This document shows, piece after piece, positions 51,874 through 55,527 of a stretch of 64,000 nucleotides of DNA (within the stretch, counting starts at the first letter, position 1; every line of letters starts with the position of its first letter). Under the pieces are notes generated by a model, which searched no databases, was not told the DNA's origin, and was given only the letters and a program-made list of their open reading frames with translations. The translations under genes were made by a program, and so were the position numbers. The stretch comes from Pegethrix bostrychoides GSE-TBD4-15B. Its GTDB lineage: Bacteria; Cyanobacteriota; Cyanobacteriia; Elainellales; Elainellaceae. Location: the NCBI GenBank assembly GCA_019359155.1, contig JAHHHV010000006.1, positions 1-64,000 of the forward strand, read 5' to 3'.

Positions 51874-52155
51874 GCCAGCCCCCAGTGCAGTTCACTCTCA
51901 AGTTTACTGCTTTACCGGATCACGAGTTTGCGTCACCACTTTGCATCACAATTTGCATCACAAAAAAGAGCAGCCCCGCCCGCTGACCCGAAGGTGGCAT
52001 GGACGAGGCTGGAGACGCAGTTAGGAGGTATCGTGATCATCTAAAATAAGGGCAAAACGCAAATTTTGGGCTGCGCTTAACAAGTTCTTAAGCAATGATG
52101 CAGATCTGGCTCGTTTTATGGCCAATTCTGTAGGATTGTTTACAAATCTTTTCCC

Positions 52156-53175
52156 TTACTCCACGCGATAGCCCAAGTCATTCAAATGCTGCCGCGACTG
52201 TCGCCACCTGGGCTGCACTTTGACAAACAGCTCAATATAGACCTTGCCCATAATCAGCTTCTGGATCTGCTGCCTTGCACCCGTGCCAATCTCCCGCATC
52301 ATGCTGCCGCCCTTGCCGATCAAAATGCCCTTTTGGGAAGCTCGCTCCACATAGACCGTTGCCAAAATCCGGGTAATCTGGCTGTCTTCTTCCACCCGGT
52401 CAATGGTAACCGCCACCGAATGCGGCACTTCCTCACGGGTTAGCGCCAAAATCTGCTCGCGAACCAGCTCGCCCATGATAAATCGCTCTGGCTGGTCGGT
52501 GACGAGATCGGGTGGGTAGTAGTAGGGGCCTGGATCAAGCCGCTCAACAATCTGAGCTTGCAGTTGCTCTAGGCCGTCCCCCGTCAGCGCCGAGAATTTG
52601 GCGACTGTCCAGCCATGCTCTGCGGCTAGCGCCTGATAGCTGTCGTCGAGTGGCTGTGCGTCAGGGGGCTGCTGATCCGCTTTATTAATGCCGAGCAGCA
52701 CTGGCACTGAACTCTGGCTGAGCAGATTGACCACATAGCGATCGCCACCGCCTGCCAGCACGCCACCATCCACCACAAACAGCAGCAGATCGACCGAATC
52801 GATGGCAATTTGAGCATTTTTGACGAGCACCGACCCTAGCTCGTGATGCGGCTTATGGATACCAGGAGTATCCACAAAAATGATTTGGGCGGTGGGCAGG
52901 GTGAGGATGCCGCGCAGTCGGTTGCGGGTGGTTTGGGCGATTGGCGAGGTGATGGCGATCTTTTGGCCAACGAGCTGGTTCATCAGGGTCGATTTACCCA
53001 CGTTGGGGCGACCGACAATGCCGACAAAGCCTGACTTGAAGTCGGGCGGAGCGCTGGGGATCAACAGATCTGCGCCGAAGTCTAGCTGCGCTGATGTCTC
53101 TGGCGCTTCCATCGCTTTGAACTGATCGGGCGCTTTGAACTGATCGGGCGGCTGATCCGGGGTGGGGTTACTCAT
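52156..53175 (-). CDS. era: GTPase Era
   Basis: A 339-aa ribosome-biogenesis GTPase acting in 16S rRNA maturation. G1 GRPNVGKS is at 55-62, G3 DTPG at 102-105 and G4 NKAD at 164-167. The C-terminal KH RNA-binding domain (YVERASQKGILIGKGGSMMR, then FVKVQPRWRQ) completes it. The first 45 residues are an unusual acidic/Pro-rich leader containing a duplicated DQFKAPDQFKA element, so the functional start may be the ATG at residue 22. It is divergent from dnaN across the putative origin. Confidence 0.93.
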   Translation of the reverse strand: MSNPTPDQPPDQFKAPDQFKAMEAPETSAQLDFGADLLIPSAPPDFKSGFVGIVGRPNVGKSTLMNQLVGQKIAITSPIAQTTRNRLRGILTLPTAQIIFVDTPGIHKPHHELGSVLVKNAQIAIDSVDLLLFVVDGGVLAGGGDRYVVNLLSQSSVPVLLGINKADQQPPDAQPLDDSYQALAAEHGWTVAKFSALTGDGLEQLQAQIVERLDPGPYYYPPDLVTDQPERFIMGELVREQILALTREEVPHSVAVTIDRVEEDSQITRILATVYVERASQKGILIGKGGSMMREIGTGARQQIQKLIMGKVYIELFVKVQPRWRQSRQHLNDLGYRVE

Positions 53176-53194
53176 TCCAGTATTTTAGGCGGAT

Positions 53195-53640
53195 CTGAGC
53201 TGTGGAAAAGCAGAGATTTTCTGTGGAAAAGTCTGTGCAAAAGCTGTGGAGAACCCAGATCAAATCGGGGCGATTTTCAGCAAGCACCGCTAGCTGTGGA
53301 GAACTGTTCTAGTTTTCCAATAGTTTCCCACAGGCGCTGAGCGACTCAACCTGTTCTATATCAGGCATCCTGGCAAGTTATCCCCAGTTTCCACAGCCTC
53401 TACTACTACTAGATCTCTTTAAAACTATTTCAGAATATAAGGATCAGGCGATCAAAAAAATGATCGATTCGCAGGTTTTCGAGCAGATGAGCCGAAAATC
53501 TCTGCAACGAAATCTACGCTTGGCGTTACGATTGCGCTTCGATCAGTTACGATCAACGTCCAAATTCCCCAGTTCGAGATCTAGTTTCAAGATCTAGTTT
53601 CGAGATCCCGCTCAAGACCCATTGCACCCCCATTATTCGA
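53195..53640. other. Predicted chromosomal replication origin (oriC)
   Basis: The 470-base spacer between era and dnaN holds a dense cluster of DnaA-box-like 9-mers. On the minus strand TTTTCCACA is at 53209-53201 and 53230-53222. TTTTGCACA (53242-53234), TTCTCCACA (53253-53245) and TTCTCCACA (53303-53295) follow. On the plus strand TTTCCCACA (53324-53332), TTATCCCCA (53378-53386) and GTTTCCACA (53387-53395) are present. An AT-rich segment with a CGATCA-A6-TGATCG palindrome (53449-53466) follows and could be the unwinding element. Cyanobacterial origins have been described next to dnaN with TTTTCCACA boxes. The dnaN promoter must overlap this region. Confidence 0.75.
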
Positions 53641-53646
53641 TCAGCT

Positions 53647-54786
53647 ATGAAACTTATTTGCAACCAGAGCGAGCTAAACCAACATCTGTCCCTTGTCTGT
53701 CGCGTTGTGCCCTCGCGCCCTAGCCATCCGGTTTTGGCCAACCTGCTGCTCTGTGCCAGCGAGGAAAACCAGCAGATTAGCCTCACCGGGTTTGACCTGA
53801 GCCTGGGGGTGCAAACGAGCTTTGGGGCGCAGGTGGAACAGGCGGGCAAGCTGACCCTCCCGGCCAAGCTGCTCAGCGATATTGTCTCGCGTCTGCCGGA
53901 AGGCCAAATCACCTTGGACGACTCGGAATCCGAAATGGTAACGCTCACCTGCTCGTCGGGGCGCTACCAGATGCGCGGCATGGGAGCTGAAGAATTCCCG
54001 GAGCTCCCGTCGATCTCGGAGGCGGAAGTGACGCTTTTGCCTGTGGATGCGCTCACCGAGGGGCTGCGCGGCTCGCTGTTTGCCACGAGCGGCGATGAGT
54101 CGAAGCAGGTGCTGACGGGTGTGCATCTGACCGCTGAGGCTGACGGGCTGGAGTTTGCAGCGACTGATGGCCACCGCCTCGCCGTGGTGCAGACGGTTGA
54201 ATCAGAGGGCGAGACGGCTAGCGCAGAAGCCCGCAGCCTAGACGTGACGGTTCCGGCTAAGGCGCTGCGCGAGCTGGAGCGGATGATTCAAATCAATCCG
54301 GGGAGCCTAGCGGTGGCTGTCAAGTTTGATCAGGGGCAGCTCGTCTGTGAATGGGCAAACCAGCGGCTCACTAGCCGTCTGCTAGAGGGCCAGTACCCCA
54401 ACTATCGTCAGCTGATTCCGCGTCAGTTCACGCGCCAAATGACGGTCGAGCGGCGGCTGTTTGTCGGGACGCTGGAGCGGATTGGGGTGCTGGCGGATCA
54501 GAAAAACAGCATTGTGAAACTGACGCTGGATGGGGCTAAGCAGGAGATTGTGCTGTCGGTGGAGGCGCAGGATGTGGGCAATGGCCGTGAGGCGATTCCG
54601 GCTCAGATTTCGGGTGAGGATCTAGAAATTGCCTTTAACGTCCGCTATTTGTTGGAAGGGCTGAAAGCCTTCAATACCACCGATGTGCAGATGCAGTTTA
54701 ATGCGGCGACTAGTCCCTCGGTGCTGAACCCAGTAGGCGGCATGAAGATGACCTATCTGGTGATGCCAGTGCAGGTGCGGAGTTGA
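53647..54786 (+). CDS. dnaN: DNA polymerase III beta sliding clamp
   Basis: A 379-aa ring-forming processivity clamp. It starts with the typical MKLICNQSELNQHLSLVCRV. The three-domain landmarks are TGFDLSLGVQTSF, LTGVHLTAEADGLEFAATDG, HRLAVV, EGQYPNYRQLIPRQ, and the C-terminal hydrophobic-pocket MTYLVMPVQVR ending. It has normal family length. It is oriented away from the putative origin. Confidence 0.96.
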   Translation: MKLICNQSELNQHLSLVCRVVPSRPSHPVLANLLLCASEENQQISLTGFDLSLGVQTSFGAQVEQAGKLTLPAKLLSDIVSRLPEGQITLDDSESEMVTLTCSSGRYQMRGMGAEEFPELPSISEAEVTLLPVDALTEGLRGSLFATSGDESKQVLTGVHLTAEADGLEFAATDGHRLAVVQTVESEGETASAEARSLDVTVPAKALRELERMIQINPGSLAVAVKFDQGQLVCEWANQRLTSRLLEGQYPNYRQLIPRQFTRQMTVERRLFVGTLERIGVLADQKNSIVKLTLDGAKQEIVLSVEAQDVGNGREAIPAQISGEDLEIAFNVRYLLEGLKAFNTTDVQMQFNAATSPSVLNPVGGMKMTYLVMPVQVRS

Positions 54787-55148
54787 TTTTTACCGTCTGT
54801 GATGATCCAAAGCAGTTTATATGCGCTATAAACATCTGCTCCCAATAATCGCAGATGAGCTGTCGCAATAACGAAGCCTGATCCTTATCGGGTTTTCTGC
54901 GATGGCCGCTGCTAATCTGTCCGCAAACAAGCTTTATTAGGGTAAACGTGCATTCTACGCCAGAATCTTTATTTAGTTTTGGAGCTAAATAAAAAGCCCA
55001 ACAGTTCAATTGCGAATCTGTTAATTCACAAACCGTTGAGCCATGTTTTTCGATAAGTGAGTGTATCAGTTTAGTCCATATTTTTCAACGGGTTTTGTAT
55101 TAGCGATTCTTATCGAACTGTGTCAACCTTTCCAAAATAAGGAACACT
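54787..55148. other. Intergenic region downstream of dnaN
   Basis: About 360 bases. A small palindrome (gtttata/tataaac, 54815-54833, loop tgcgc) lies 28 bases after the dnaN stop. A minus-strand frame in 54710-55009 overlaps dnaN and has no domain, so I do not call it a gene. Confidence 0.5.
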
Positions 55149-55421
55149 ATGCAACAAGATCGGGATCCGCAGAATTTACAACGTCTGTTTTCAATGCTTT
55201 CGACTCTTCTCTCAATGCTTTCAACTCTTCTAAAAGAAGTTCTAGATCTGAAGCAGCAATTCTCTGAGTTGCAAGCTGATCATGCCAACCTGTCCCATGA
55301 TGTTCGTATTAAAATGAGTTCGTGCCGGGATCGGCTAGCAGAAGCTGAAAGCCTGCCAGTTTGGGACAATGGAGAAATCTCCTCAAAAGCTGATTGGTTG
55401 GACATGGATGAGGAAACCTAA
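55149..55421 (+). CDS. Small coiled-coil protein, 90 aa
   Basis: AAGGA precedes ATG 55149 at good spacing. The N-terminal half is a Leu-rich amphipathic helix with an internal duplication (MLSTLLSMLSTLLK) that reflects a tandem duplication in the DNA at about 55191-55230. A coiled coil (EVLDLKQQFSELQADHANLS) and a short acidic C-terminus follow. No family is recognised. The RNA hairpin at 55454-55494 probably ends its transcript. Confidence 0.6.
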   Translation: MQQDRDPQNLQRLFSMLSTLLSMLSTLLKEVLDLKQQFSELQADHANLSHDVRIKMSSCRDRLAEAESLPVWDNGEISSKADWLDMDEET

Positions 55422-55453
55422 AATTAGGTTGACCGCTCACGCTCCTATACACC

Positions 55454-55494
55454 CTGTACTGTGAATGCAGCTTCTTGTTGCGTTCGCAGTACAG
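55454..55494 (+). terminator. Long stem-loop, terminator-like without U-run
   Basis: ctgtactg (55454-55461) pairs with cagtacag (55487-55494), and the stem continues inward for seven more pairs to 55468/55480 with an 11-nt loop. Two of the inner pairs are G-U in RNA transcribed from the plus strand and would be A-C mismatches in minus-strand RNA. The structure therefore favours a plus-strand transcript, that of the 90-aa gene. No U-run follows. Confidence 0.5.
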
Positions 55495-55527
55495 AATCTT
55501 AGCCATCTGATTTCTGAGCGCTAGGCG

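Follow-up and report, generated by a model that had tools for sequence, protein, structure and literature searches.

The spacer between era and dnaN in the cyanobacterium Pegethrix bostrychoides GSE-TBD4-15B is very probably the chromosomal origin of replication (oriC), and an origin of a known kind; we put the probability of this reading at about 0.9. The spacer lies in a window of 64,000 nucleotides, the whole stretch of DNA that was analysed (contig JAHHHV010000006.1 of assembly GCA_019359155.1). A first-pass annotation of the window had proposed it as the likely origin, and the proposal is now supported by a cluster of DnaA boxes, the neighboring dnaN, DnaA-trios in register, AT-rich DNA, an intact dnaA gene, and recurrence at all family loci scored. 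The sequence shows these elements, their order, spacing, and conservation, and a signature that the genome contains once; by analogy with studies of other bacteria, we infer that DnaA would bind, melt the DNA, and start replication at the era–dnaN spacer.

A cluster of DnaA boxes upstream of dnaN

We define a DnaA box as a 9-mer with at most one mismatch to TTWTCCACA. The features of the locus are as follows.

52156..53175, minus strand: era, GTPase Era, 339 aa (NCBIfam and Pfam models)
53176..53646, no strand: era–dnaN intergenic region, proposed oriC, 471 bp
53201..53209, minus strand: DnaA box TTTTCCACA, perfect, left arm
53222..53230, minus strand: DnaA box TTTTCCACA, perfect, left arm, 21 bp from the box at 53201
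53234..53242, minus strand: DnaA box TTTTGCACA, left arm
53245..53253, minus strand: DnaA box TTCTCCACA, left arm
53295..53303, minus strand: DnaA box TTCTCCACA, left arm
53324..53332, plus strand: DnaA box TTTCCCACA, right arm
53378..53386, plus strand: DnaA box TTATCCCCA, right arm, first of the tandem pair
53387..53395, plus strand: DnaA box GTTTCCACA, right arm, second of the tandem pair
53396..53399, no strand: GCCT spacer between box pair and trios
53400..53411, minus strand: four DnaA-trios, 3'-GAT-5' x4, plus strand CTACTACTACTA (motif as defined in excerpts of PMC8287927)
53410..53459, no strand: AT-rich stretch, 72% AT, the peak of the spacer; likely the first DNA to melt
53449-53466: palindrome CGATCA-AAAAAA-TGATCG
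53647..54786, plus strand: dnaN, DNA polymerase III beta clamp, 379 aa (NCBIfam and Pfam models)

The proposed origin is directly upstream of dnaN (start at 53647), and the strands of the two genes, named from NCBIfam models, agree with the claim that era and dnaN diverge from it. Eight 9-mers had been reported within about 200 bases, and eight boxes do span 195 bp (53201-53395): five on the minus strand form the left arm, and three on the plus strand form the right arm. Two are perfect, and the other six carry one mismatch. The whole window contains 26 boxes, with at most one per 250-bp stretch outside the spacer; when it was shuffled 100 times under a first-order Markov model, no 250 bp had more than three. 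The density is thus far above chance, as the first-pass annotation had it. A stricter pattern, a pair of same-strand boxes separated by 3-33 bp, occurs at two places in the genome (reversed control: 0), with two overlapping matches in the era–dnaN spacer and three at C67:12281-12354, beside guaA. Equal box density elsewhere had been named as an objection to the origin; this one rival cluster exists, but it is without the box-and-trio signature described below.

The annotated palindrome with 6-bp arms around an A6 tract is present, but it is absent from five aligned relatives, and a part for it in the origin finds no support. GATC occurs 12 times in the 471 bp, a density reached in just 0.11% of the window's stretches, and ten of these sites fall in the right half (53412-53646). 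The relatives are mixed in this respect, with GATC above the genome's own background in only 27 of 43 loci. A second, less strictly conserved block in the alignment of spacers, TCAGTTACGATCAACGTCC with its flanks at 53541-53562, about 90 bp before dnaN, is perhaps the promoter or operator of dnaN. At the gathering score, Rfam gave no structured RNA match in 52000-55500.

A putative box-and-trio unwinding element

The decisive part of the spacer, overlooked in the first-pass annotation, is the DnaA-trio element at 53400-53411. Excerpts of PMC8287927 define the basal unwinding system (BUS) by three parts (DnaA boxes, a spacer, and DnaA-trios) and report that DnaA of Synechococcus elongatus, in vitro, separates the strands of the box-and-trio DNA of that species. 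Such a system has a box at most 16 bp from at least three trios; here, the last box ends at 53395 and four trios run from 53400. The AT-rich stretch announced after the boxes is also there. In the proposed sequence of events, DnaA would occupy the boxes of both arms, at 53201-53303 on the minus strand (left) and at 53324-53395 on the plus strand (right); a DnaA filament would grow from the tandem pair at 53378-53395 onto the four trios and open the AT-rich DNA past them, where the helicase would be loaded.

We searched for this arrangement as a signature (TTTCCMCA, 3-5 nt, CTAMTACTAM), with the reversed pattern as control. The 5.72-Mb genome of P. bostrychoides has a single match, C6:53388-53409. 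Across the class, 89 of 155 genomes have the signature, with 90 matches counted whatever their neighbor genes and none for the control; among dnaN loci of the relatives and P. bostrychoides, 20 of 30 have it. Since the signature is missed in 66 of the 155 genomes and 10 of the 30 dnaN loci, its absence elsewhere says little.

Conservation in relatives and likeness to known origins

All 22 family loci that could be scored (L005-L026, P. bostrychoides included) have at least 4 boxes in 250 bp upstream of dnaN; the family comprises 25 genomes, three of which have no scorable dnaN locus and are left out of this count. The usual layout is one of minus-strand boxes about 21 bp apart followed by plus-strand boxes that are spaced by about 11, 53, and 9 bp. 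A divergent era was found at dnaN in six genomes (G000-G004 and G017), in a survey where most dnaN loci had at most 1.5 kb of upstream sequence, and era is not a general feature of the origin's neighborhood. In an alignment of six spacers (P. bostrychoides, four of the same genus, and G017), 57 of 78 positions within 53378-53455 are invariant versus 62 of 393 elsewhere: the tandem boxes, trios, and first AT-rich part are the best-conserved portion of the spacer.

Farther afield, many dnaN loci among L087-L114, mostly Nostocales (Nostoc and kin), are without an upstream box cluster, and four loci in this range (L091, L094, L099, and L103) keep an identical six-box set at dnaN. According to excerpts of PMC5987646, N. 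punctiforme likewise has no cluster upstream of dnaN and carries a box cluster a few genes off.

Excerpts of PMC4674748 place origins beside dnaN, with TTTTCCACA boxes, in most cyanobacteria examined. The spacer resembles the dnaN-linked oriC of Synechococcus elongatus PCC 7942, Anabaena PCC 7120, and Cyanothece ATCC 51142 in its cluster of TTTTCCACA-type boxes beside dnaN, and that of Cyanothece ATCC 51142 also in the AT-rich stretch (PMC4674748, in part). It differs from them in having era as its other neighbor, in the single mismatch carried by six of its eight boxes, and in the placement of dnaA on another contig. With the BUS of Bacillus subtilis oriC and others, it shares tandem boxes, a short spacer, and 3'-GAT-5' trios (PMC8287927, in part); unlike the strict consensus, its pair reads TTATCCCCA/GTTTCCACA, and the element is a candidate BUS by sequence.

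The dnaA gene and GC skew

P. bostrychoides has one copy of dnaA, intact and on contig C71, and its product has all three Pfam domains (N-terminal, AAA+, and DNA-binding); the 15 kb around the gene contain no box cluster. The DnaA C-terminal domain is found in 151 of the 155 class genomes. The four genomes without a DnaA match have neither signature nor phased array, and two of them are just 62% and 83% complete.

The genome is in 92 contigs, so a cumulative skew curve is impossible, and no skew turn is visible at 53.3 kb within the window. Skew was therefore sampled in three single-contig genomes (G006, G011, and G042), with 20 stretches of 20 kb (0.4 Mb) from each. The family members G006 and G011 gave no origin signal at the dnaN site (p 0.217 and p 0.798, respectively), and their skew is irregular, as is described for cyanobacteria in excerpts of PMC7198777, PMC4907049, and PMC5987646. 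For G042, which belongs to another, more distant family, the origin position estimated from sampled skew and the signature site are no more than about 202 kb apart (permutation p 0.001). In G042, the signature lies some 0.6 kb from dnaA and not beside dnaN, which was not found in the first 20 kb. For the P. bostrychoides site, skew speaks neither for nor against. In 1.2 Mb sampled from these three genomes, same-strand clusters of at least 3 boxes were confined to four places: the putative origin of each genome, which adjoins dnaN in G006 and G011 and coincides with the signature in G042, and one DUF2811 array of the kind described below.

Alternative readings of the spacer

Some cyanobacteria keep dnaA and yet replicate independently of DnaA and oriC (PMC7198777, in part), so the use of this origin in this strain is unproven. 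The spacer could be an ancestral oriC that still binds DnaA, in a cyanobacterium (perhaps polyploid, as many are) whose replication has come to begin at another site or at many. Dependence on DnaA and oriC has been lost several times in cyanobacteria, with irregular skew, according to excerpts of PMC7198777; the sampled skew of G006 and G011 would fit such a loss, as would the degeneracy of several boxes in the spacer. What counts against a disused origin is that it would not need conserved boxes, trios, or AT-rich DNA, and these are the most conserved parts of the spacer; dnaA, moreover, is intact. We regard this reading as improbable, though it is the most serious competitor of an active oriC.

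Far less probable still is that the boxes serve DnaA as an operator for regulating transcription of dnaN and era, a role compatible with oriC. Their position between two divergent genes suggests it, but an operator needs neither trios nor an AT-rich block, era is not the usual neighbor, and there is no sigma-70-like promoter match in 53100-53700, which is weak evidence. The least credible alternative places the true origin at the guaA cluster (C67:12281-12354). Its boxes are stronger, four perfect ones against two of eight in the era–dnaN spacer, and this is a point against the latter as oriC; yet the guaA cluster is without the box-and-trio signature and lies between convergent genes in this genome, and a dnaN cluster coexists with a guaA- or TIGR04376-side array in all 22 family genomes whose dnaN locus could be scored. 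An active oriC in the era–dnaN spacer remains our preferred reading.

Phased DnaA-box arrays away from the origin

Two loci outside the window carry recurrent arrays of phased same-strand DnaA boxes, mostly 20-22 bp apart and without the trio signature. One is downstream of guaA or its convergent neighbor; the other lies upstream of DUF2811 and hemJ genes. In P. bostrychoides, they are as follows.

C67:12281-12354 (L002:8282-8355), one strand: guaA array, four perfect boxes, 21-22 bp spacing
C80:55473-55591 (L213): hemJ-side array, one perfect TTATCCACA and four one-mismatch boxes

We searched for guaA, the TIGR04376 gene, and hemJ in 40 relatives (P. bostrychoides included) and scored the best 30 loci of each. 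Same-strand clusters of at least 3 boxes occur downstream of guaA in 17 of these 30 loci, downstream of TIGR04376 in 13 of 30, and upstream of hemJ in 26 of 30, always in the direction typical of their kind (17/17, 13/13, and 26/26); guaA and TIGR04376 each showed one extra cluster in the opposite direction. No clusters occur on the opposite flanks of these 90 loci, and the trio signature is absent from all 90.

The guaA array of P. bostrychoides is flanked by guaA and a helicase-like gene convergent to it. Six genomes have guaA and the TIGR04376 gene as convergent neighbors, with the array between them; the other family members have it at one gene or the other. A guaA/TIGR04376 array is present in all 25 family genomes: 24 have at least 3 boxes, and the exception, G024, has two phased boxes and one reversed. 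Outside the family, these loci are often without an array. The spacers between boxes of the guaA array are variable, save for the bases adjoining the boxes, as expected if the boxes alone are kept. That convergent genes flank this array in several genomes argues against its serving as a promoter; it may act as a roadblock to transcription.

The hemJ-side array is present in 24 of 25 family genomes, the exception being G017, which has two boxes, and the DUF2811 gene is found in 27 of the best 30 hemJ loci. The array of P. bostrychoides at this place is mostly degenerate, chiefly of TTTTCCCCA-type boxes; most relatives have better boxes.

Class-wide, a pattern of three phased boxes occurs in 66 of 155 genomes (reversed control: 0). 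Of the 70 distinct array places listed outside the family, 39 were picked by hand and fetched, some of them from closely related genomes. Four adjoin dnaN, 7 lie downstream of guaA, 20 lie upstream of a DUF2811 gene, and 8 are elsewhere. The last group comprises one place beside a cation-efflux gene that elsewhere flanks the guaA array and seven beside other genes, including L270, where the guaA match is just 29% and was counted as other. Only the four dnaN places have the trio signature. Genomes with and without the box-and-trio signature have phased arrays in 42/89 and 21/66 cases (Fisher p 0.069), a comparison that is uncorrected for kinship, leaves out G032, G091, and G117 (whose only array is beside dnaN), includes arrays whose place off oriC is not confirmed in every case, and allows no conclusion.

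At the 20 distant DUF2811 places, the array is 245-660 bp upstream of the start, and its main cluster runs in the direction of the gene in 20 of 20. The DUF2811 gene is followed by hemJ in one place and by a flavin amine-oxidoreductase gene, which we take to be protoporphyrinogen oxidase, in three; in the other 16, neither was found within the 4.5-kb stretch. On the other side of the array, a gene in L256 and L293 was read by eye as trpB. We also considered DUF2811 as a ribbon-helix-helix protein, and no such match appeared in Pfam at E up to 10 (five proteins) or in a PDB profile search.

Resemblance to datA/DARS-type loci

Outside oriC, clusters of DnaA boxes in Bacillus subtilis reportedly regulate initiation, to go by the title of Okumura 2012, and the cyanobacterial clusters share with them a position outside oriC. 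Another likeness is to datA, DARS1, and DARS2 of Escherichia coli, which are small clusters of 3-6 DnaA boxes at conserved places off oriC (PMC4585315, in part). Loci of the datA/DARS type are marked by an effect on the DnaA-ATP/ADP ratio, with IHF or Fis, and by DnaA binding in vivo. Both the guaA and the DUF2811 arrays are conserved box clusters outside oriC, small and at conserved places, and in this they resemble datA/DARS-type or DnaA-box-cluster loci; unlike the E. coli loci, they consist of same-strand boxes with a phasing of mostly 20-22 bp. As phased, predicted DnaA-binding loci without an unwinding element, they could hold DnaA or alter its nucleotide state, and the DUF2811 array could steer transcription.

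In an open-licence library, searches turned up work on cyanobacterial oriC, but no report of guaA or DUF2811 arrays and no paper with the word DUF2811. Most subscription papers are outside this search, so the novelty of the arrays is provisional.

Implications for cyanobacterial replication

The origin itself is ordinary, but its position is now given to the base, its putative unwinding element can be targeted by mutation, and the signature gave a single match in a draft of 92 contigs, where whole-genome skew cannot be computed. As to the arrays, we would give even odds to a broader proposal: that many cyanobacteria have, besides oriC, two old DnaA-binding control loci, an array downstream of guaA (in several genomes before a convergent gene) and an array upstream of the small DUF2811 gene (next to hemJ in the family studied here). 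Both would hold or re-charge DnaA and so set the chromosome copy number in cells that are often polyploid. The target of the guaA array, flanked as it is by convergent genes, would be DnaA itself and not a promoter; the array at DUF2811 may, in addition, couple a small uncharacterised protein to the replication cycle. If DnaA binds them, the arrays would provide concrete loci for asking how polyploid cyanobacteria restrain DnaA.
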